From: Arthrobacter gandavensis
GTDB taxonomy: Bacteria; Actinomycetota; Actinomycetes; Actinomycetales; Micrococcaceae
Length of the DNA: 64,000 nt
NCBI RefSeq assembly: GCF_015355785.1
Contig: NZ_JADKYW010000005.1
Span: 215,864-279,863 of the forward strand
Reading direction: 5' to 3'
In this document: piece after piece, positions 1-61,562 of the stretch
Layout of the letters: each line of letters begins with the position of its first letter
How positions within the stretch are numbered: position 1 is the stretch's first letter
Translations under genes and position numbers: made by a program
Notes under the pieces: generated by a model
Database searches by the model: none
What the model was told of the DNA's origin: nothing
The model's input: the letters and a program-made list of their open reading frames with translations, nothing else

Positions 1-2752
1 AGGAGGCGGTGCCCTTGTCCGCTGCGACCACCAGGTAGCTGTCATCGCCGTCGTGCCGCACCACGTTTTCCGGCGGGTGGACCTGCTCGCCGTCTTCGGT
101 GACCACCAGGTTGTCAGTGATGTCCAGCAGCCCGCGGATGAAGGTGCGGTAGCTTTCCTTGCCCTCTTCCATCCAGGCGCCGCGGTCCTTCGACGGGTCC
201 GGCAGCTGTTTGGCATAGAAGCCGCCCTTGGCGCCGGTGGGAACAATGACGGCGTTCTTGACCGTCTGGGCCTTGACCAGGCCCAGGATTTCGGTTCGGA
301 AGTCCTCGCGCCGGTCCGACCAGCGCAGGCCGCCGCGGGCCACCTCGCCGAAGCGCAGGTGCACACCCTCTACGCGCGGGGAGTAAACCCAGATCTCATA
401 CTTGGGCCGCGGGAACGGAGCTCCGTCGATCACGGCTGTGTTGAGCTTGTGGCTGACGTAGGCCTTGTCCTGGTAGAAGTTGGTGCGCAGAGTCGCCTCG
501 ATGAGGTTGGCGAACGTCCGCAGTACGCGGTCCGCGTCCAGGGTGGGAACCTGCTCCAGCCCGGCATCCAGTTCGCTGCGCGCAGCCTCCATCTCCGCCG
601 CGCGCCCGGACTCTTCGAGGGCCGGATCGAACCGGGCCCGGAACATCCGGCCAAGCGCAGCAGTGACCCGGGGGTTGGCCAGCAGCGTGTCCGCGATGAA
701 GCCGTAGGAGTTGGTGTTGCCCATCTGGCGCATGTACTTGGCGTAGCTGCGGAACATCACCACTTCCCGCCAGCCCAGGCCCTGGCCCAGGATCAGGCGA
801 TCAAGCGCGTCCGATTCGCTGGCGCCTGAAATGCCCGCACGGAAAGCCTCCGCCAGGAGGGTACCGGTTTCCAGCGGATCCACGCCGGCTCCGTAGCGCA
901 GTCCGAGGTCGTACAGGAACAGCTCGACGCCGTCGCGCCGCCGGATCTCGAACGGACGTTCGTCGAGCACCTCAAGGCCCAGGTTGTGCAGGAAAGGAAG
1001 GATCTGGGTCAGGGACTTCGGTTCCAGCAGGTACAGCTTGAGCCGGGCATCGGCGCTGTCGGTGTTCTCGCCGCTGCGGGCCGGAAGGTACACGAAGAGC
1101 TCCGGAGCGGTCTCCGGGTTCCGGAGCCGGTCTTCAAACCGGGCGATGTCCGCAAGTGCGTCCTCAACCTCGTACCCCACGCGGTAGTCCATGGGGAACG
1201 CGTCGCCCCACTGGGCGGACAGCTCCTCGGCCTGGACCCGGTCGAACTTCCCGCGCAGCACCTCGTCGATTCCCTCGGACCAGGAGCGCGTGGCGTTGAC
1301 CAGCCGGCGTTCCAGCGCAGCTGCGTCGACGTCCGTGATTTCAACGCCCTTGGGCAGACGGATGCGGAAGAACAGGCGGGCCAGCGCGGATTCGGTCAGG
1401 CGCGCCTCGTAGTCAATGGAGTCGGCGTTGAACGTTGACCGCAGCTCGTCCTGGATCCGCAGGCGGACCGAGGTGGTATAGCGGTCGCGCGGCAGGAAGA
1501 CCAGCGCGGACATGAAGCGTCCGTAGACGTCCGGGCGCAGGAAGAGCCGGGTACGCCGCCGTTCCTGCAGGCGGAGGATGCCCTGGGACGTCTCCAGCAG
1601 GCCGTCGACGTCGATCTGGAACAGTTCGTCGCGCGGGAAGGTCTCGAGGATGGAGAGCAGGTCCTTGCCTGAATGCGAGTCCGCGGGGAATCCTGCCCGG
1701 CGGACAACTTCCTTGACCTTGTCGCGCAGGATGGGCACGTCCCGGACGGACCCGGTGTAGGCGCCGGTCGCAAACAGGCCAATGAAGCGCCGTTCACCGG
1801 TGACGTTGCCTTCGGCGTCGAACCGCTTGACCCCGATGTAGTCGAAGTAGGCCGCGCGGTGCACGGTGGAACGTGAATTCGCCTTGGTGATTACGAGGGC
1901 ACGTTTCTCCCGCGCCTTCGCCCTGCCGGCCGTTGTCAGATGCTGGACCTTGCCGGCCTCCGAACTTTTGCGCAGCAGTCCAAGGCCCGTGTTCGAAGAA
2001 GCGCGGAGCACGTCTTCGCCGTTCTCGTTGATGAGGTCGTATTCGCGGTATCCGAGGAACGTGAAGTTGCCGTCGTCGAGCCACGTGAGCAGCTCCCGTG
2101 CCTGCTGCAGGTCAGGGATTCCCGGCCCGGCTGCGGAGAGTTCAGCCGCAATCTCGTGGACCTTGGCCCGCATGCCGGACCAGTCCCTGACGGCAACGCG
2201 GACGTCGTCCAGGACCCGAAGCAATCCGTCCACCATCTCCCGGCGGCGGTCCTCATCGCTCAGGCGTGGCACTTCGACGGCAATCCAGGACTCGATGCGC
2301 GTGGTCTGGTCGCCGTTGCCCAGCAGGCCGGAGATGTCAGGGAGTGCAGCGGTGTCCCCGCTGGAGATGCCGGCCGCGTTCGGAACCCGCTTAACCTGCT
2401 GCAGGGTGTCGCTGTCCCGGTGGCGGGTCGCCAGGAAGGTCGGATGGACCATCAGGCGGATGCCGCTGTTCCGCCGGACGATCTCGGCCGTGACCGAATC
2501 GACGAGGAACGGCATGTCGTCGGTGACAATGAGGATGACGCTGGCATCCCCCTGGTCGAAGACGTCTACCGCTGCCGTGCCTTCCGCGCGGGTCCATGCC
2601 AGTGCCCGGTGCGCCTCGGCGCGTTCCCGCAAGGCCTGTGGAGGGTAGAGTGCGGCGTCTTCAGCCGCCAGATGCTCGTAGTAGTTCCCGATGAAATCCT
2701 CAAGGGAGATATCCGAGCTGGAAAGATCCGTGGTGTTGGATCCAGACGACAT
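1..2752 (-). CDS. gdh: NAD-specific glutamate dehydrogenase, large type (3' end outside window)
   Basis: This is the N-terminal ~917 codons of the ~180 kDa GdhB-type NAD-glutamate dehydrogenase, which deaminates glutamate to 2-oxoglutarate and ammonia with NAD and usually serves glutamate catabolism. The reading frame stays open to the left edge, so the C-terminal part lies outside. Translation begins MSSGSNTTDL. The long regulatory N-terminal region fills about residues 1-700. The catalytic core starts near residue 790 with PRPKYEIWVYSPRVEGVHL, then FGEVARGGLRWSDRREDF and LVKAQTVKNAVIVPTGAKGG, all diagnostic for the family. The ATG at 2752 follows GGAGG with 9 nt spacing. It ends an apparently single transcription unit; 88 nt separate it from the CpaE-like gene transcribed the same way. 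Recognition is firm. The absence of the C-terminus is due only to the window edge. Confidence 0.95.
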   Translation of the reverse strand, partial: MSSGSNTTDLSSSDISLEDFIGNYYEHLAAEDAALYPPQALRERAEAHRALAWTRAEGTAAVDVFDQGDASVILIVTDDMPFLVDSVTAEIVRRNSGIRLMVHPTFLATRHRDSDTLQQVKRVPNAAGISSGDTAALPDISGLLGNGDQTTRIESWIAVEVPRLSDEDRRREMVDGLLRVLDDVRVAVRDWSGMRAKVHEIAAELSAAGPGIPDLQQARELLTWLDDGNFTFLGYREYDLINENGEDVLRASSNTGLGLLRKSSEAGKVQHLTTAGRAKAREKRALVITKANSRSTVHRAAYFDYIGVKRFDAEGNVTGERRFIGLFATGAYTGSVRDVPILRDKVKEVVRRAGFPADSHSGKDLLSILETFPRDELFQIDVDGLLETSQGILRLQERRRTRLFLRPDVYGRFMSALVFLPRDRYTTSVRLRIQDELRSTFNADSIDYEARLTESALARLFFRIRLPKGVEITDVDAAALERRLVNATRSWSEGIDEVLRGKFDRVQAEELSAQWGDAFPMDYRVGYEVEDALADIARFEDRLRNPETAPELFVYLPARSGENTDSADARLKLYLLEPKSLTQILPFLHNLGLEVLDERPFEIRRRDGVELFLYDLGLRYGAGVDPLETGTLLAEAFRAGISGASESDALDRLILGQGLGWREVVMFRSYAKYMRQMGNTNSYGFIADTLLANPRVTAALGRMFRARFDPALEESGRAAEMEAARSELDAGLEQVPTLDADRVLRTFANLIEATLRTNFYQDKAYVSHKLNTAVIDGAPFPRPKYEIWVYSPRVEGVHLRFGEVARGGLRWSDRREDFRTEILGLVKAQTVKNAVIVPTGAKGGFYAKQLPDPSKDRGAWMEEGKESYRTFIRGLLDITDNLVVTEDGEQVHPPENVVRHDGDDSYLVVAADKGTAS

Positions 2753-53520: not shown

Positions 53521-56500
53521 TCAGGCTGGTCCCTGCCCGGCGGAGTCGATGATGATCTTCTCAAGCTCGGCTTCCCCCAGCAGGTTGTGGGGGCGGATGA
53601 CCTTATCCGCGGAGACGTAGTAGAACGCTGCCCGCACCTGATCCAGGGGAACGCCCTTCAGCCTGGACCAGGCCAGCCGGTAGACCGCCAGCTGCACGGA
53701 GCGGACCGCGAGCTTCTCCCGGGAAGGCGGAGCGCCGGTCTTCCAGTCGATGAGGTCCCAGCCGCCGTCCTCGTCCTGGAAGACGGCGTCGATCCGTCCC
53801 CGGACCACCACTGAATTCACCCGCGTTTCGACGGGAACTTCAATATAGGCCGGGGTCCGGGACGCCCATTCGGATGCCTCGAAGGTGGCGACCATGTCTT
53901 CGAGCTGGTATGCCTCGTCAACGTAGGCATCGGCTGTGCCCGGATACTCGTCGATGTCGAGCATGCCGCTGCGGCCGAAGTACTTCTCGATCCAGGCGTG
54001 GAACGCGGTTCCCTTCCGTGCCGCCATTCCAGGTTCACGCGGTACCGGACGTCGCAGCTGCCGTGTGACGGCTTCGGGGTCATCCTGCAGGTCCACCAGC
54101 ATCGAGGCCGATATATGGGCGGGAAGTTCAACGTCCATGACCTCTTCCGGAGCATGGTGCCGGGCCAGGACAAGCTCAACGTCCCTTCCCCAGCGCCGGG
54201 GTTCGAAGACGCTGTCAGCTTCTTCAGTTTCGGCACGAGCCCGTTCTTCGGCAGGGGCGCCATCCGGTTCGAGAGCCGTCTGCGCAGGGGCCTCAGCTGC
54301 TGCGAGGACCGCCGCGGCAGCCGCTTCCATCGCTGTCCGCCGCTGGGCCGGCAGCGGGTCCTTGGGCCAGCTTGCGCGTTCCGCAACTGCGTTCGCGGGG
54401 TTTTCATCCCCCTGGTCTTCAGGCTCGAGCCAGGAAAGCAGATGGAATCCGGGGGCGCCGGACTTGCCCAGCTCGTACAGTTCAAGCTGGTAGCGCGACG
54501 CCTCGGTGGGTTTGCTCCGCCCGCCGCCCCAGGCACTTGAGGTGCAGAAAAGAATGTCTTTCGCCCGGGTGAACGCCACGTAGGCGAGGCGCCGCTCCTC
54601 ACGCTCCGCATGGGCGCGGGCATCGTCCGCGAAGAGCTTCTCTGCGTCCAGCCACGACTTTTGGTCCGGCTGTTCCCAGTCCCACTGCGGCAGGTCCGGA
54701 CCGTCACCGCGCAGGTTCCAGGGAACAGCAGCGTTGCCGCTGCTCCAGCGTGAGTCCTTGTCATTCGGGAACTGGCCTTCCGAAAGGCCCGGCACAGCAA
54801 CCACATCCCATTCCAGGCCCTTGGAGGCATGGACGGTCAGCAGCTGTACAGCTTCGCGCGAGGTTTCCAGCGCGGTGACGGGGAGTCCGTTCTCTTCTTC
54901 GTCCGCAACTTCCAGCCAGGCCAGGAACGCCGCAAGGTCCACGCGGTCTGCCGAGGCGCTGAACGTCGCCGCGGCGTCAATGAACGCGTCGAGGTTCCGC
55001 CGGGATTCGTGAATCGTGATGCCTGGTTTGGCCGCAACCTCGATGTCCAGGAGGATGCGCCGCTCCACTTCGCCCATGAGCGTCGTAAGGTCCTCCCCCA
55101 CGTACGCGCGCAGTTCCCGCAGCTCATCGCGGAGCAGGTTCAGACGGGTGAGTCCTTCCGGAGTAAGCGTGCGGCCGGCACTGGAGGTCCAGCCGGGCTT
55201 CGGCAGGTAATCCACCGCCTCGACCAGGCTGCCGGCTTCCGCCAGGTCCGTTTCGACGACGGCGGCACCGCCTTCGTCCGGTCCGTGCACGTCGGCGATC
55301 TCCCTGACGTTCATGGCGCGTTCCCGCACCCGGACAAGATGCCTGGACCAGTCGGCCAGTGCCATGAGGTCCGCCGGGCCAATGCGCCAGCGTGCCCCGG
55401 CGAGGATGCGGAGCATCGAGTCGGAGCGTCCGGGATCGCTCAGGACGCGCAGCACGGCGAGCAGGTCAACAATCTCCGGAGTCGAGAGCAGTCCGCCCAG
55501 GCCCACAATCTGCACGGGGATTCCCAGGTCTTCCAACGCGCGGCGGATGGGATCGAACTGTTTCTTGCCGCGGCACAGTACCGCCACCGTTGGAGGCAGC
55601 GTGTTGCCGCGGTTGTCCGTCTCGTGGCTCGGGTGCCGGAACCACGAGTCACGGACGTTTGCGATCCGGGCGGCCAGCGCTTCGGCTTCCCCCACGCTCA
55701 CCGTTCCGTCCGGAAGAGTCACTGTTTTCTCGCTGAGGTACCGGCCCAGGTATACGTCGCCCAGGGGCGGTTTTGGCTTGGCCTCGAGTTCAGGGACGTC
55801 CAGGGGTGTCCTGGCTCCAGGCCAGGGTGCCGGCTTGTTCAGTGGCCCGGAAACGGCGTTGGCGGCCGCCAGGATCGACGTTGAGTTCCGCCACGCCACC
55901 GACAGGTTGGCTACCCCGGCCGGGGTCCGGCCGCCGTCGGGCAGCAGCCGCGGAAAGTGCTCCCGAAAGGTCCCCAGCTGCCCCGCCGATGCACCGCGGA
56001 AGCCGTAGATTGACTGGTGCGGATCGCCCACGGCCGTGACCGGAGTGCCGTCGCCGAACAGGGTGGAGAACAGCACCATCTGGGCGTGGGAGGTGTCCTG
56101 GAACTCGTCCAGGAGCACCACCTTGTACTTGGCGCGCTCCATTTCGGCAGCTTCGGGGATCTCTTCGGCTATCCGGGCGGCCAGTGCCACCAGGTCCCCG
56201 AAGTCCAGCTGCCGCCGCTCGGCCTTGGCCCGCTGGTAGGCCTCGACGAGTTCGGTCACTGAAATGCGCGTCTGGAGCTTGCCCACCAGGTCCCGAACGC
56301 CTTTGGCAGCCGCCTTCGTCTTGCCGGCCTGGTACGGCAGCGCCAGCACCTGCTCCAGATGGTGCTGGATCTCGGCACGCACCTGGGCAGGGGCCAGGAG
56401 GTGTTCGGCGCACTCCGAGGCCATCTGCAGCACCGAATTCACCAGCGTCGACTTCGCCGCGGTGAAGTGTTCGTAATCGCCGGTGTAGGCCTCCACCACC

Positions 56501-56994
56501 TCGTTCGCCAGCTGCCAGGACTGGGCTCCGCCCAGCATGACCGAGTCGCGTTCGACGCCGATCCGCAGGCCGTAGTCGTTCACGATTCCGTTGGCGTAGG
56601 AGTGGTAGGTGGACACGGCTGCTTCAAGCTGGGCGTCTTTGGTTTCCTCGCCCAGTTTCCGTTCCAGCAGCCGCAGCCTGCCGCGGATCCGGCTGGCGAG
56701 CTCGCCGGCGGCCTTGCGGGTAAAGGTGACGCCCAGGATCTGCTCCGGCGCCGCCAGTTTGTTGGCCACCAGCCAGACCACACGGTCTGCCATGGTCTTG
56801 GTCTTGCCGGACCCGGCTCCCGCCACCACCAGCAGCGGTTCGAGCGGGCCCTCAATGATCTTCTGCTGGGCCTCCGTGGGGTACTGGACCTCGTTCGGCG
56901 GACCATCATGGAGCATCTCCGCCAGCTGCCGTGCTGAGAACTGCGGCACGAACCCTGCCCCCGTCTCCACGCTGCTGCTCACGTCCAGCGTCAT
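53521..56994 (-). CDS. adnB: AdnB subunit of the AdnAB helicase-nuclease
   Basis: A 1157-residue subunit of the actinobacterial double-strand-break resection machine. The UvrD-type motor has Walker A AGAGSGKT (58-65) and Walker B VVLLDEFQDTSHAQM, and motif VI RLAYVAFTRAKDI. The C-terminal RecB-like nuclease domain has GRIDAVFQDEDGGWDLIDWK (DWK near 1083), the metal site. Length matches AdnB. The frame extends upstream to 57021, but ATG 56994 overlaps the adnA stop as ATGA, so the subunits are made together. In mycobacteria AdnB is the leading motor. It ends at a 19-bp inverted repeat. Confidence 0.95.
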   Translation of the reverse strand: MTLDVSSSVETGAGFVPQFSARQLAEMLHDGPPNEVQYPTEAQQKIIEGPLEPLLVVAGAGSGKTKTMADRVVWLVANKLAAPEQILGVTFTRKAAGELASRIRGRLRLLERKLGEETKDAQLEAAVSTYHSYANGIVNDYGLRIGVERDSVMLGGAQSWQLANEVVEAYTGDYEHFTAAKSTLVNSVLQMASECAEHLLAPAQVRAEIQHHLEQVLALPYQAGKTKAAAKGVRDLVGKLQTRISVTELVEAYQRAKAERRQLDFGDLVALAARIAEEIPEAAEMERAKYKVVLLDEFQDTSHAQMVLFSTLFGDGTPVTAVGDPHQSIYGFRGASAGQLGTFREHFPRLLPDGGRTPAGVANLSVAWRNSTSILAAANAVSGPLNKPAPWPGARTPLDVPELEAKPKPPLGDVYLGRYLSEKTVTLPDGTVSVGEAEALAARIANVRDSWFRHPSHETDNRGNTLPPTVAVLCRGKKQFDPIRRALEDLGIPVQIVGLGGLLSTPEIVDLLAVLRVLSDPGRSDSMLRILAGARWRIGPADLMALADWSRHLVRVRERAMNVREIADVHGPDEGGAAVVETDLAEAGSLVEAVDYLPKPGWTSSAGRTLTPEGLTRLNLLRDELRELRAYVGEDLTTLMGEVERRILLDIEVAAKPGITIHESRRNLDAFIDAAATFSASADRVDLAAFLAWLEVADEEENGLPVTALETSREAVQLLTVHASKGLEWDVVAVPGLSEGQFPNDKDSRWSSGNAAVPWNLRGDGPDLPQWDWEQPDQKSWLDAEKLFADDARAHAEREERRLAYVAFTRAKDILFCTSSAWGGGRSKPTEASRYQLELYELGKSGAPGFHLLSWLEPEDQGDENPANAVAERASWPKDPLPAQRRTAMEAAAAAVLAAAEAPAQTALEPDGAPAEERARAETEEADSVFEPRRWGRDVELVLARHHAPEEVMDVELPAHISASMLVDLQDDPEAVTRQLRRPVPREPGMAARKGTAFHAWIEKYFGRSGMLDIDEYPGTADAYVDEAYQLEDMVATFEASEWASRTPAYIEVPVETRVNSVVVRGRIDAVFQDEDGGWDLIDWKTGAPPSREKLAVRSVQLAVYRLAWSRLKGVPLDQVRAAFYYVSADKVIRPHNLLGEAELEKIIIDSAGQGPA

Positions 56995-59900
56995 TCGGTG
57001 ACCTGCTTTCCTTCGGTGCACAACGGACAGATTTCCGGCAGACGGCAGCCGTGGCCGCCATATCCGCTGCGGGCCGGATCGTGGACGGTATCGAACGTGC
57101 TGTTGGACATCAGGGCCGCGGCTTCCTCGATCATGGCCAGGGCGCTCTGATCCTCGGGACCCAGCGGGGGCTGTTCCTGGATCGAGACGCCCTTGGCTGA
57201 CGTGCCCAGCTGCACCAGCGCTGCTCCGCCGGGGACGGCGGCAACCTCTGCGAGGGCGCCTTGGCGGACTGCTTCCTGATAGGAGGCCAGCTGGGGGTGT
57301 CCTTCCAGGTCCGCTTTCCTGGGAGCAGACTTTCCGGTCTTGAGGTCCACGATGTAGGCCCTTCCGGCGGCGTCCTGTTCCAGCCGGTCGATCTGTCCGC
57401 GCAGCAGGGCCGTACGGACTTCGCCGCGGACCTCCACCGGAATCGATGCTTCGAAGTCCTTCTCGACGGCGGCCAGGCTCCGCCCGCCCCTGCGCATCTC
57501 GATGACGTACTCCGCAAGCTTGCCCACCATGGCCTCAGCCCGCTTGAGGTCCATCTTCCCTTCCCAGGAGTCCTTCATCCCCAGCGACGGCCATCGGCGC
57601 CGGAGCTCCTCCGTGTACTCCGTGCCCGTGGCTTCGGGCATCTCCTGCGCAATCGCGTGTACCAGCGTTCCCAGGGAACGGGCAAAATCGGTGGCCTGTT
57701 CCCCGCCGACCGCTGAGACGAACCAGCTCAGCGGAGACTTGCTGACGGCGTCGACCTTCGAGGGCGAGACCGGAATTGGGGCATCGGGCGGCAGCACCGG
57801 CCCGGTGCTGGAGAGCGGCAGCAGACCCCACCAGGTGCGCGGATGTGCACCCGGAACCGGAACCGGGTGCCGGAGCATGCGCCCGAGGTGCCGTGCCGCT
57901 TCGCCGGCGTCCTCCGGGTGGCTCTGCACCTGCTGGGCATGGGCCCGCAGTTCAGCTACCAGGGAGCGGAGGGTCAGCGGCCGCAGGACCTCGGTGCGGG
58001 GACGTACGGCCACGCCGTCGGGAAGCGGATCCACCAGGTCCAGGAACTGGGAAGGCTGCTCGTCCTCCGATGCCACCGCCGTGCAGACCAGCACATCCCG
58101 GGCACGGGAGAGCGCAGTGGAGAAGCTGCGCAGCTCGTCGTACCTCGTGCCCTGCATCAGCGTCTGTGGACTGCGGGTCCTGCGGTAATCGGCGTCCGGG
58201 AACTCGACGGCTGCCACCAGGTCTCCGCTGCCGAGCAGCTCGCCGCGCAGCCGGAGGTTGGGCCAGACTCCTTCCTGGATACCGGCGACGATCACCACCG
58301 GCCATTCCCGGCCGGCGGCGCTGGCCGGGGTGAGGAGTTCGACGGCGTCGCGCTGCTGCGCCCGTGCCGCCAGGGTGTCCATGGGCAGCTCTGAGCTGGT
58401 CAGGTAGTCCAGGAACTGCTCAGGCGTGGAGCCCGGCAACTGGTCAACATAGCGTTCAGCAGTCTGGAACAGCGCCATGATCGCATCCAGGTCCCTGTCG
58501 GCCCGGAGCCCTGCAGATCCTCCGGACAGCGCGGCCTCGGCCCACTTCTTGGACCAGCCGGACGTTGACCACAGGGCCCACAGCACGGTCTCAGCAGTGG
58601 CCCCCGGCTGCTCCGCAGCCTGCCCTCCGGCACGCAGCATTGCGGCCAGCCGTTTCGCCGAGCCGGCTTCCCAGCCCAGTCCGGCGAGCGCCAGCCCGGC
58701 ATCGGAGAGCGGGTCCACCAGTGCTTCCACCAGCAGGGCATCGGAGCTGCGCCCGCCCCCGGCGCGGAGCTCTTCCCGGCGCAGTGCCTGCCGCAGCCTC
58801 CGAAGATCCAGCGAGCCTGCGCCGCCAATCCGCGAGGTCAGCAGGGAGACAGCGAGCTCGGGCGTGAGGAGTTCGGGGTTGAGCACCACGGCGAAGGCGT
58901 CCAGAAGGGGCCGCACCGCGGCCTCGTCCCGGACAGCCTTTTCCGCCACCGGCACCCGTACCTCGATGCCTTGGCTGATCAGGTAGCGCTGGATCCGGGC
59001 CAGCTGCCCGCCGGTCCGGACGATCACGGCGATGTCCTCCAGGCGGCGGCCGCGCAGCAGCTGCTCTTCGAGGATCCGCTGCGCCACGTAGCGCTGTTCG
59101 TGCATGGGCGAGTCCACCACGTGGGCCGTCGCTGACGCCGTCCGGGAGGATGCGTTCCCAGCCGGTTCGTTACTGGCTCCGGCTCCCGGGGAATCTTCGC
59201 CGCTGTCCGTGCGGCCTGCCGCAGTGCGCGCCGGGCCAAGGCCGGGAACCACGGAGATACGGGAGGCGGTCCGGTGCCAGGCTGCGGCGACGGCTCCGGA
59301 CATCCGGTGCTGCGTACTGAGCACCGCAGTTTCCAGTTCCGTGCCAAGCTCCTGCCCAAGAGTGCCGAGCAGATCGGGACGGGCCCCGCGGAAGCCCTGG
59401 ACGACCGTGTCCGGGCTGGCGGTGACCACGGCGTCGCGGTCCCGGGCCAGTACGCCAAGCAGGCGGTGGATGGCTCCGTTGGCTTCCTGCAGGTCGTCAA
59501 CGAGGATCAGCTGGAGCCGGCTGTGCTCGGCGGACAGAAACTCCGGTTCGGAGAGAAGGATGTCCGTTGCGGTGGTGATGATGCCCGCCGGGTCGAAAGC
59601 TTCGGGCATGCGCAGGTCCAGGACGTCCCGGTATTCACCGAACAGTGACGCGGCGGCAGCCCAGTCCTGCCTGCCGTAGCGGCGGCCCAGTTCCTGCAGG
59701 TCCTCAGGGGCCAGCCCAAGTTCGATCACGCGGTCGAAGAGCTGGCGGATTTCCTGCCGGAAGCCGCGGGTTCCCAGCGCCAGCGAAAGGGATTCGGGCC
59801 AGGGCAGCTGCGGCACCCCGTTCTGCCCATGGCCTGCCAGCAGTTCCTTGATGATGACGTCCTGCTCGGCGCCGGAGAGCAGCTTGGGTGCGCGGGTGAC

Positions 59901-60263
59901 GTGCGGCAGCAGGCCCTCCGCCTTGGCCCGGCGGATGACGTCGAAAGCGTAGGAGGCCCAGGTGCGGGCCGGTGCGGCACTGATGGTGCGCTCAAGACGG
60001 GCAGAGAGCGCGTCGCGCAGCGCTGCCGCCGCGAGGCGGGACGGCGCCAGCAGCAGCACCCCGGCCGGATCCAGTCCGCCGCGCTCAATCCGCTGTACTG
60101 CGGTTTCGACCAGCACAGTGGACTTTCCGGTGCCGGGGGCTCCCAGGACCAGCAGCGGTCCGCCCCCGGCGGGGCGCTCGACGGCGGCGCGCTGGTCCTC
60201 GCTCAGGTGCGGTGCGGGAAGGCCGGCCGCCGCGGGCGGTACCAGCCGCAGGTTGATGCTCAT
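56991..60263 (-). CDS. adnA: AdnA subunit of the AdnAB helicase-nuclease
   Basis: A 1090-residue partner of AdnB. It has Walker A GAPGTGKS (41-48) but a Walker B reading LILVDDLQEA, with Asp where Glu is usual, consistent with a weaker motor than AdnB. The C-terminal nuclease domain contains GQIDRLEQDAAGRAYIVDLK (near 957-976) and ends with cysteines C1073, C1079 and C1082, spaced C-x5-C-x2-C, a possible iron-sulfur ligand set. The start overlaps the ATL gene stop by ATGA and its stop overlaps adnB likewise, so three genes are coupled. Assignment rests on order, length and both domains. Confidence 0.94.
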   Translation of the reverse strand: MSINLRLVPPAAAGLPAPHLSEDQRAAVERPAGGGPLLVLGAPGTGKSTVLVETAVQRIERGGLDPAGVLLLAPSRLAAAALRDALSARLERTISAAPARTWASYAFDVIRRAKAEGLLPHVTRAPKLLSGAEQDVIIKELLAGHGQNGVPQLPWPESLSLALGTRGFRQEIRQLFDRVIELGLAPEDLQELGRRYGRQDWAAAASLFGEYRDVLDLRMPEAFDPAGIITTATDILLSEPEFLSAEHSRLQLILVDDLQEANGAIHRLLGVLARDRDAVVTASPDTVVQGFRGARPDLLGTLGQELGTELETAVLSTQHRMSGAVAAAWHRTASRISVVPGLGPARTAAGRTDSGEDSPGAGASNEPAGNASSRTASATAHVVDSPMHEQRYVAQRILEEQLLRGRRLEDIAVIVRTGGQLARIQRYLISQGIEVRVPVAEKAVRDEAAVRPLLDAFAVVLNPELLTPELAVSLLTSRIGGAGSLDLRRLRQALRREELRAGGGRSSDALLVEALVDPLSDAGLALAGLGWEAGSAKRLAAMLRAGGQAAEQPGATAETVLWALWSTSGWSKKWAEAALSGGSAGLRADRDLDAIMALFQTAERYVDQLPGSTPEQFLDYLTSSELPMDTLAARAQQRDAVELLTPASAAGREWPVVIVAGIQEGVWPNLRLRGELLGSGDLVAAVEFPDADYRRTRSPQTLMQGTRYDELRSFSTALSRARDVLVCTAVASEDEQPSQFLDLVDPLPDGVAVRPRTEVLRPLTLRSLVAELRAHAQQVQSHPEDAGEAARHLGRMLRHPVPVPGAHPRTWWGLLPLSSTGPVLPPDAPIPVSPSKVDAVSKSPLSWFVSAVGGEQATDFARSLGTLVHAIAQEMPEATGTEYTEELRRRWPSLGMKDSWEGKMDLKRAEAMVGKLAEYVIEMRRGGRSLAAVEKDFEASIPVEVRGEVRTALLRGQIDRLEQDAAGRAYIVDLKTGKSAPRKADLEGHPQLASYQEAVRQGALAEVAAVPGGAALVQLGTSAKGVSIQEQPPLGPEDQSALAMIEEAAALMSNSTFDTVHDPARSGYGGHGCRLPEICPLCTEGKQVTE

Positions 60264-60679
60264 ACCTCCACTTCACCATGCCCCGGTGACATTGCCCCGC
60301 CCGGCTCCTCACCGCCGGCGCCGGCCAGCGCTTCCCGGAGCGCATCGAGAGCCTCCCAGCCGGCGTCGTCGGGCTGCCAGCGCGCCTCGCGGATGCTCAC
60401 GCGGTAGCCGGTTCCGTCCGGCTCCACTTGTCCTTTCAGCGGCGTCCCTTCCTCGCGGTAGTGCGTCCAGGCACGGTTCCCGTGGCAGGCCGGCGGCTGC
60501 CCGGATGAGCGGATGACGCGCCACCAGGGAACCGAATCTCCTGACTGTGCCAGCACGGAACCGACCTGCCGGGGGCCTCCAGCGCCAAGCAGCTCCGCGA
60601 TGTCTCCGTAGGCCAGCACCCGTCCCGGCGGAATGAGCGCTGCGACAGCCAGCACCGCCTCCGTATAGTCCTCCCGCAT
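60260..60679 (-). CDS. Alkyltransferase-like protein (ATL, MGMT family without acceptor Cys)
   Basis: A 139-residue relative of O6-alkylguanine-DNA alkyltransferase. The acceptor motif PCHRV is PWWRV (51-55): both the reactive Cys and the following His are Trp. The upstream YGDIAELLGAGGPRQVGSVL supplies the Arg finger. ATL proteins bind alkylated bases without repairing them and hand them to excision repair. Here the gene is translationally coupled to adnA (ATGA). ATG 60679 has GGAGG only 1 nt away, too close to work, but TAAGCT lies 6 nt upstream, so a leaderless message is likely. Confidence 0.88.
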   Translation of the reverse strand: MREDYTEAVLAVAALIPPGRVLAYGDIAELLGAGGPRQVGSVLAQSGDSVPWWRVIRSSGQPPACHGNRAWTHYREEGTPLKGQVEPDGTGYRVSIREARWQPDDAGWEALDALREALAGAGGEEPGGAMSPGHGEVEV

Positions 60680-60685
60680 GCCTCC

Positions 60686-60691
60686 AGCTTA
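60686..60691 (-). promoter_or_regulatory. -10 element for leaderless transcription of the ATL-adnA-adnB operon
   Basis: TAAGCT on the minus strand ends 6 nt before ATG 60679. No RecA-NDp motif accompanies it on this strand. Confidence 0.45.
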
Positions 60692-60719: not shown

Positions 60720-60742
60720 ATGTCAGTGCCCGCCGGTAGGTT
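60720..60742 (+). promoter_or_regulatory. RecA-NDp (PafBC-type) DNA-damage promoter of the exonuclease gene
   Basis: ATGTCAGTG (60720-60728), 8 bp, then TAGGTT (60737-60742). The known motif is tTGTCRGTG-N8-TANNNT; only the weakly conserved first base differs. Transcription would start 7 nt downstream, at ATG 60750. Confidence 0.75.
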
Positions 60743-60749
60743 TGATTAC

Positions 60750-61562
60750 ATGTTGAGCTGGCATGAACTCCCCCGGGCATCCTTCGACCTGGAAACCACG
60801 GGACGGGACCCACAGCTGGCGCGGATCGTCACCGCATCGATCATCCTGGTGGACGGCTCCGGGAACGTCCTCACACACCATGAGTGGCTGGTGGACCCCG
60901 GAGTAGAGATTCCGGCCGAGGCCGCCGCCATCCACGGCATCAGCACTGACAAGGCCCGAAGCGAAGGCCTGAGGGCTGCCGACGCGGTCCATGAGATCAG
61001 CACCGTCCTCGCGGACACGTTCGCTGCCGGGATTCCCGTTCTTGCGTTCAACGCCGCCTACGACTTCACTGTCCTGGCCCGCGAAGCGGAGCGGCACGGA
61101 CGCGCTTCCCCGGTACCCTTCCCCGTGATCGACCCCTACATCCTGGACAAGCAGGCGGACCGTTTCCGCCGCGGCAAGCGGACATTGACAGCCATGGCTG
61201 AACACTATTCCGTGGCCTTCGAAAACGCACACACGTCTGCTGCAGACGTCATGGCGACCCTGGCCGTGGGAGCGGCGGTTGCAAACTCGTATCCGCTCAT
61301 GGCCCAGGACGCCGGAACCATGCATGCTCTGCAGGTCCAGTGGGCTGCGGAACAGGCGGCCAGTTTCCAGGCCTACCTGCGCCGTCGTGATCCGGAGGCT
61401 GTCATTGACGGTTCCTGGCCGCTGAAGCCCGCACCGCTGGGTTCTCCGGCTCCGCTCGCAGTCCCGGACGCACTGCGGATCGAGGCCGTCCCTGCCGCGG
61501 CCGTGCCGGTCCTGACAGAGGAGGCCGGCGGCCAGCTGGTGCTGGAACTGGCTCCGCGCTAG
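60750..61562 (+). CDS. DEDDh 3'-5' exonuclease (DNA polymerase III epsilon-like)
   Basis: A 270-residue protein. Residues about 8-175 form a DnaQ-type exonuclease: D13 and E15 in ASFDLETTGRD, Asp in LAFNAAYDFTVLA, and the His/Asp pair in ENAHTSAADVMAT complete the DEDDh set. The C-terminal ~90 residues are a variable tail. The annotated frame could start at 60720, but that ATG lies inside a RecA-NDp promoter whose transcript begins at ATG 60750, so 60750 is the true start and the message is leaderless. It is divergent from ATL-adnAB. Probably a DNA-damage-induced proofreading or repair nuclease rather than the replicative epsilon. Confidence 0.92.
   Translation: MLSWHELPRASFDLETTGRDPQLARIVTASIILVDGSGNVLTHHEWLVDPGVEIPAEAAAIHGISTDKARSEGLRAADAVHEISTVLADTFAAGIPVLAFNAAYDFTVLAREAERHGRASPVPFPVIDPYILDKQADRFRRGKRTLTAMAEHYSVAFENAHTSAADVMATLAVGAAVANSYPLMAQDAGTMHALQVQWAAEQAASFQAYLRRRDPEAVIDGSWPLKPAPLGSPAPLAVPDALRIEAVPAAAVPVLTEEAGGQLVLELAPR

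Follow-up and report, generated by a model that had tools for sequence, protein, structure and literature searches.

Which promoter and which start codon serve the gene of a stand-alone DEDDh exonuclease that lies back to back with genes for an alkyltransferase-like protein (ATL) and two AdnAB-type helicase-nucleases (Table 1)? A sequence-only reading of the locus had placed a damage promoter of the PafBC (RecA-NDp) class in front of the exonuclease gene and had chosen the downstream of two ATGs as the start. Our answer, held with considerable confidence, is that positions 60720–60742 of the window (the whole 64-kb stretch of DNA analysed) constitute a PafBC-dependent (RecA-NDp) promoter that would give a leaderless mRNA for the exonuclease from ATG 60750. 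Support was obtained directly from the motif and its geometry, the conservation of its exact spacing, the start codon, the presence of a PafBC gene, and an architecture like that of radA.

Table 1. Features of the exonuclease locus and of the divergent unit, with window coordinates
Feature	Coordinates	Strand	Basis
-26 element of the predicted PafBC (RecA-NDp) promoter, ATGTCAGTG	60720..60728	+	Sequence; TGTC-N12-TANNNT in 29/29 congeners and, in leaderless geometry, 55/91 family genomes
-10 box TAGGTT, 8 bases past the -26 element	60737..60742	+	Sequence; spacing scan k = 4..25
Predicted transcription start, at the A of ATG or one base before	60749..60750	+	Inferred from -10 position
270-aa DEDDh 3'-5' exonuclease of the PRK07942 family	60750..61562	+	NF005927, Pfam RNase_T
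ATL (alkyltransferase-like protein)	60260..60679	-	Pfam DNA_binding_1
TAAGCT, a -10-like box 6 bases ahead of the ATL ATG	60686..60691	-	Sequence; no TGTC at 12-base spacing
AdnA-type helicase-nuclease	56991..60263	-	Pfam UvrD-helicase + PDDEXK_1; name AdnA from the sequence-only reading
AdnB-type helicase-nuclease	53521..57021	-	Pfam UvrD-helicase + UvrD_C + PDDEXK_1; name AdnB from the sequence-only reading

The two promoter elements read ATGTCAGTG-N8-TAGGTT and, when set against TTGTCRGTG-N8-TANNNT, differ from it at a single base. In the consensus as given in PMC5656591 (tTGTCRgtg-8 nt-TannnT), the first t and the gtg are both written in lower case; the sole mismatch falls on that weak first t, with TAGGTT at exactly the expected spacing, and the earlier claim of a match at all strongly conserved positions was therefore exact, coordinates included. 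Leaderless genes carry their -10 box 6–7 bases before the start codon, and 7 bases separate TAGGTT from ATG 60750. Compared with the RecA-NDp/PafBC promoter of the mycobacteria, exemplified by recA P1, the locus shares TGTCAGTG, the 8-base spacing, and TANNNT, and the Arthrobacter genome likewise encodes PafBC and bears the motif before recA and radA. It differs in its geometry, which appears to be leaderless, and in its target, an exonuclease absent from the target lists in the accessible parts of the cited work. On this reading, the exonuclease promoter extends a known promoter class by one member and brings a stand-alone exonuclease into the predicted LexA-independent damage regulon.

The ATG at 60720 sits inside the -26 element, as had been stated in the sequence-only reading, and is rejected as the start on the evidence of 28 congeners with ATG at the anchor position. 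Among these, mean column diversity is 0.36–0.41 over the 30 bases before 60750 and, past that point, 0.08, 0.08, and 0.25 at the three codon positions; identity of the amino acids climbs from 0.38 upstream to 0.87 downstream; an in-frame stop lies within the 30 upstream bases in 12 of the 28; and only 7 have ATG or TTG at -30. Conservation begins at 60750, and the preference for this ATG over 60720 is borne out: judged by these comparisons, it is the true start. With a 7-base spacer, the N of NTGTC yields an in-frame ATG, GTG, or TTG, which makes the element a trap for gene callers; such a false start is found in 17 of the 55 family genomes that carry the element. The start codon is thereby fixed, and the promoter itself is shown to create a false one. 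Rv1955 of M. tuberculosis offers a parallel, in that a RecA-NDp motif lies within the annotated frame and experiment moved the start downstream; as described there, however, Rv1955 belongs to an operon, is of unknown function, and is not leaderless from its promoter (PMC2897130).

By itself, the match in the window proves nothing: with up to two mismatches, the 64 kb hold 4 matches against 2.15 expected, and 15 of 100 shuffles reach 4. Significance comes from the place of the motif and from its conservation, not from the pattern in the window. LexA/SOS boxes, in turn, are TCGAACNNNNGTTCGA-like palindromes, and a LexA box was rejected as an alternative, with none of the 40 window matches at up to three mismatches falling between 60600 and 60760 and the closest one (948–963) lying inside a long reading frame. 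The 40 LexA-like matches, counted on both strands, compare with 23.4 expected and are reached in 0 of 100 shuffles, an excess that possibly stems from codon usage.

Across the whole 3.37-Mb genome, the PafBC motif occurs with at most one mismatch at 15 places, against 6 for the reversed pattern. The exonuclease is one of these, recA another (72 bases from motif to ATG), and radA provides the only perfect match, with its ATG 6 bases past the -10 box (RadA and RecA were named by NCBIfam). radA is a PafBC target elsewhere. By eye, two further places fall at small frames, one with a TlyA-like frame after it (L011) and the other preceded by a LexA-like palindrome (L015). Open frames of more than 330 aa cover 8 of the 15 places (L004, L007, L008, L010, L012, L013, L014, and L015), and many of the 15 are therefore probably chance. 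The tight geometry TGTC-N12-TANNNT-N5..7-RTG is found at 14 genome places versus 1 in the control. Behind these stand the exonuclease, radA, sbcD (L251), and polA (L259; assigned from its first 300 residues, with a score under the model's full-length cut-off), together with metK (L260), a WYL protein (L252), a transporter-like and a peptidase-like gene (both by eye), and frames of 92 and 188 aa. Three of the 14 have frames of 31 aa or less, and the recA motif is also among them, yet at a GTG other than the recA start. The presence of metK and others without a known tie to repair, and of the three shortest frames, was counted against the PafBC reading.

Upstream regions of the exonuclease orthologue were taken from 91 genomes of 31 genera (29 of the genus, 22 with loci, and 40 stretches hand-picked at one or two per genus from 158 drawn), and those of radA from 55 genomes of 30 genera (54 stretches and the genome itself). 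One genus (g30) was omitted, its match lying at a contig end, and neither g22 nor g30 has a radA row. These regions were scanned for TGTC-Nk-TANNNT with a start codon 4–9 bases on and k from 4 to 25; counts are given by genus as well, because genomes are not independent events. For the exonuclease, k = 12 occurs in 55 of the 91 genomes and 17 of the 31 genera, k = 11 and k = 16 in one genome each, and every other spacing in none. For radA, k = 12 occurs in 40 of the 55 genomes (23 genera), k = 13 in one, and other spacings in none. A slightly different scan gave 56/91 genomes and 18 genera for the exonuclease. With GTC alone, the 12-base spacing is kept in 69/91 exonuclease upstreams (21 genera) versus at most 3 at other spacings, and in 47/55 radA upstreams versus at most 4. 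The -10 box lies 6, 7, or 8 bases before the start in 33, 20, and 2, respectively, of the 55 orthologues with the element. The sequence-only reading had called for a search for the motif upstream of orthologues in other Micrococcaceae; TGTC-N12-TANNNT is present in the 55 genomes above and, within the genus, in all 29 congeners. This conservation of the exact spacing is far beyond chance.

A further set of 80 named loci (the best 80 of 171), which probably overlaps the strains of the other sets and is not independent of them, has k = 12 in 40 and, as the sole other spacing, k = 24 in 4. In L084, L086, and L090, the element precedes frames whose starts lie further upstream and which continue into the exonuclease gene (the frame was read by eye in L084). 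The agreement between the two genes is looser than a tight rule would have it: among the 55 genomes in which both were read, the strict form is found at both in 20, at radA only in 20, at the exonuclease only in 6, and at neither in 9, and the last three classes were counted against such a rule and against PafBC control.

A sceptic might hold that the match is chance, or that it reflects plain conservation of an ordinary leaderless promoter free of damage control. The motif is indeed no rarer in the window than in shuffles, and leaderless -10 boxes are common: TANNNT lies 4–9 bases before the start in 87/91 exonuclease and 53/55 radA upstreams, and 28 of 44 ATL upstreams have a leaderless-looking -10 box. 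Against this stand the exact spacing, kept over 17 genera and in other families, and the same 44 ATL upstreams (from 44 of the 80 loci), of which none has TGTC at the 12-base spacing and 2 have k = 24. Throughout the remainder of the 80 loci (846 kb), moreover, k = 12 occurs at just 5 places, 3 of them exonuclease genes with a longer N terminus and 2 adnA. An origin by chance or as an ordinary promoter is thus strongly disfavoured and has very little probability left.

The ATL counts also bear on the claim that the ATL-adnAB unit lacks the motif, so that the two repair units would be wired differently. For this locus, and for ATL in all 44 upstreams, the claim stands; it does not hold everywhere, as the adnA gene of Nesterenkonia massiliensis (L091; minus strand, no ATL found) has ATGTCAGTG-N8-TAGTCT 7 bases before a start. 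In Garicola koreensis (L112; likewise on the minus strand and with no ATL found), adnA has TTGTCGCAG in the same geometry. Of the 34 loci that have adnA but no ATL, 3 show TGTC-N12-TANNNT within 330 bases, whereas 8 show a spacing of 7; only L091, with its full motif, is therefore taken seriously as an adnA promoter. In M. tuberculosis, PafBC reportedly increases AdnAB (PMC8151990). Leaderlessness does not separate the two units, since the ATL gene also looks leaderless (Table 1). With the element absent from ATL here and present at adnA in Nesterenkonia massiliensis, the exonuclease and adnAB units seem to be wired differently in different lineages. In the ATL protein, PWWR occupies the position of the PCHR motif of repair methyltransferases.

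Not all of the motif is kept. Whereas TGTC-N12-TANNNT is found in every one of the 29 congeners, TGTCNGTG is found in 18 and TGTCRGTG in 15, leaving 14 without the full element. In the genus, radA shows a similar drift (5 of 7 full, 2 of 7 drifted to TGTCACCG), and the drift is thus not special to the exonuclease. What is constrained outside the mycobacteria can accordingly be located, as far as these comparisons indicate, in TGTC, the 12 bases, and the -10 box, rather than in the full TGTCRGTG; RGTG drifts, a further difference from the mycobacterial promoter.

Promoters of the sigma-R/SigH type have the consensus GGAAY-N18/19-GTT, and in 15 of the 29 congeners such a site overlaps the PafBC element upstream of the orthologue. 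It could be argued from these sites, which lie near the start, that an ECF sigma factor of this type, responding to thiol-oxidative stress, drives transcription here, with TGTC incidental or shared. All 15, however, also have TGTC-N12-TANNNT; TGTC stays in all 29 congeners, the sigma-R-like site in only about half of them; and no such site is found in the window, in any of 62 exonuclease upstreams outside the genus, or in any of 55 radA upstreams. A sigma-R promoter was therefore rejected for this locus and is judged highly improbable, although double control by a sigma-R-like factor and PafBC is possible in part of the genus.

The protein scores 298.3 bits against the curated cut-off of 186 for NCBIfam NF005927 (PRK07942, there called 'DNA polymerase III subunit epsilon') and has the catalytic D, E, D, H, and D residues (D13/E15 in FDLET, NAAYDF at 101, and HTSAAD at 161). 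It differs from that model in its length of 270 aa, with a variable tail past residue 227, at which the match ends. A strict expression for the catalytic site was satisfied by 67 of 80 relatives and a narrower one by 49; the other 13, read by eye over 185 residues, all have FDLETT and the D of the second motif, the third motif being cut off or incomplete within those residues in L114, L115, L116, and L118. The exonuclease is 93% identical to its Arthrobacter koreensis counterpart, the sole solved relative found is a PolC-type chain (2.9e-4), and the second PRK07942-family match in the genome is weak (26 bits). The enzyme would be expected to act in repair and is probably a hitherto unlisted part of the damage response in these bacteria; a literature search of titles and abstract openings, covering few subscription papers, found none on this exonuclease gene or on the genes that PafBC controls in Arthrobacter.

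The genome encodes PafBC as a 665-aa fusion with two WYL domains, matching the solved Arthrobacter PafBC (PDB 6sj9) at an E value of 1.7e-136. A PafBC match, weak in some, is present in 156 of 158 family genomes, and co-loss of PafBC is therefore unusable as a test. In one genome (G140:C1:2576981-2578952), the match comes in two overlapping pieces in different frames, possibly a frameshift or an assembly error. In M. smegmatis, PafBC is switched on by single-stranded DNA (ssDNA); its PafB half recognises the -26 element, and its PafC half grips domain 4 of sigma-A (PMC11804915). By analogy with the mycobacteria, DNA damage would expose the fused PafBC to activating ssDNA, and with the help of PafBC, the housekeeping RNA polymerase would rely on the TGTC element instead of a -35 box; the polymerase would then fire from the TAGGTT box to give a leaderless mRNA starting at ATG 60750. 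Control of the exonuclease by PafBC is thus very likely, with damage induction, PafBC dependence, and the transcript 5' end predicted for the host organism on the strength of its promoter sequence. It has also been reported that mycobacterial ClgR recognises the P1 promoter region, and joint action with PafBC has been discussed (PMC5656591), so that a different damage-gene regulator such as ClgR, alone or with PafBC, might read the motif here. The structure, with PafB placed on the -26 element (PMC11804915), and the in vivo PafBC binding sites, which resemble RecA-NDp (PMC8223512, PMC6789036), speak against this, and we regard it as very unlikely.

The link between exonuclease and element reaches other families of the order and the class. 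Among 24 orthologues from nine further families of the order, 16 have TGTC-N12-NANNNT in the 150 bases upstream, with a mean of 0.7 and a maximum of 4 of 24 at other spacings; the geometry is leaderless in 11. The 24 are not a random sample: they are what is left of the 30 top-scoring loci from 79 genomes once the Micrococcaceae are set aside. A strong exonuclease match is present in 11 of the 69 genomes sampled from the class, and 12 upstreams from outside the order, again taken from the 69 genomes and not random, have the element in 5, other spacings averaging 0.2 with a maximum of 2. Three large genomes (7.9–9.7 Mb) of one family outside the order each hold two PRK07942 paralogues (L291-L293, L300-L302), and in all three, the element is found at one paralogue of the pair and not at the other. 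It reads TTGTCAGTG or CTGTCAGTG and lies 64–76 bases before the match, a distance that, on the predicted promoter position, leaves room for a leader.

Could the exonuclease be a built-in off switch of the PafBC response, removing the very ssDNA signal that induced it? PafBC needs bound ssDNA to stay active, and in vitro, its transcription drops sharply when ExoI, an exonuclease that degrades ssDNA, is added (PMC11804915). The idea joins this one in vitro result to the regulatory link found here, and we consider it unlikely, if conceivable. If true, an old and conserved negative feedback loop would explain why several actinobacterial families keep the -26 element at its exact spacing before this gene, in a leaderless form in Micrococcaceae and a leader-permitting form in others.

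In Streptomyces, a RecA-NDp promoter has been reported for S. coelicolor (PMC5087735), whereas the M. smegmatis PafBC motif is described as seemingly not conserved in S. venezuelae (PMC9380542). A looser motif, with NANNNT in place of TANNNT as found in other families, could help to settle this discrepancy. In one family of the order (f9; L274, L276, L279, L282, and L290), TGTC and its 12-base distance to the -10 box are kept, but the box itself is missing the first T (GAGAGT, CAGGCT, AAGAGT); PafBC promoters may tolerate a poorer -10 box.
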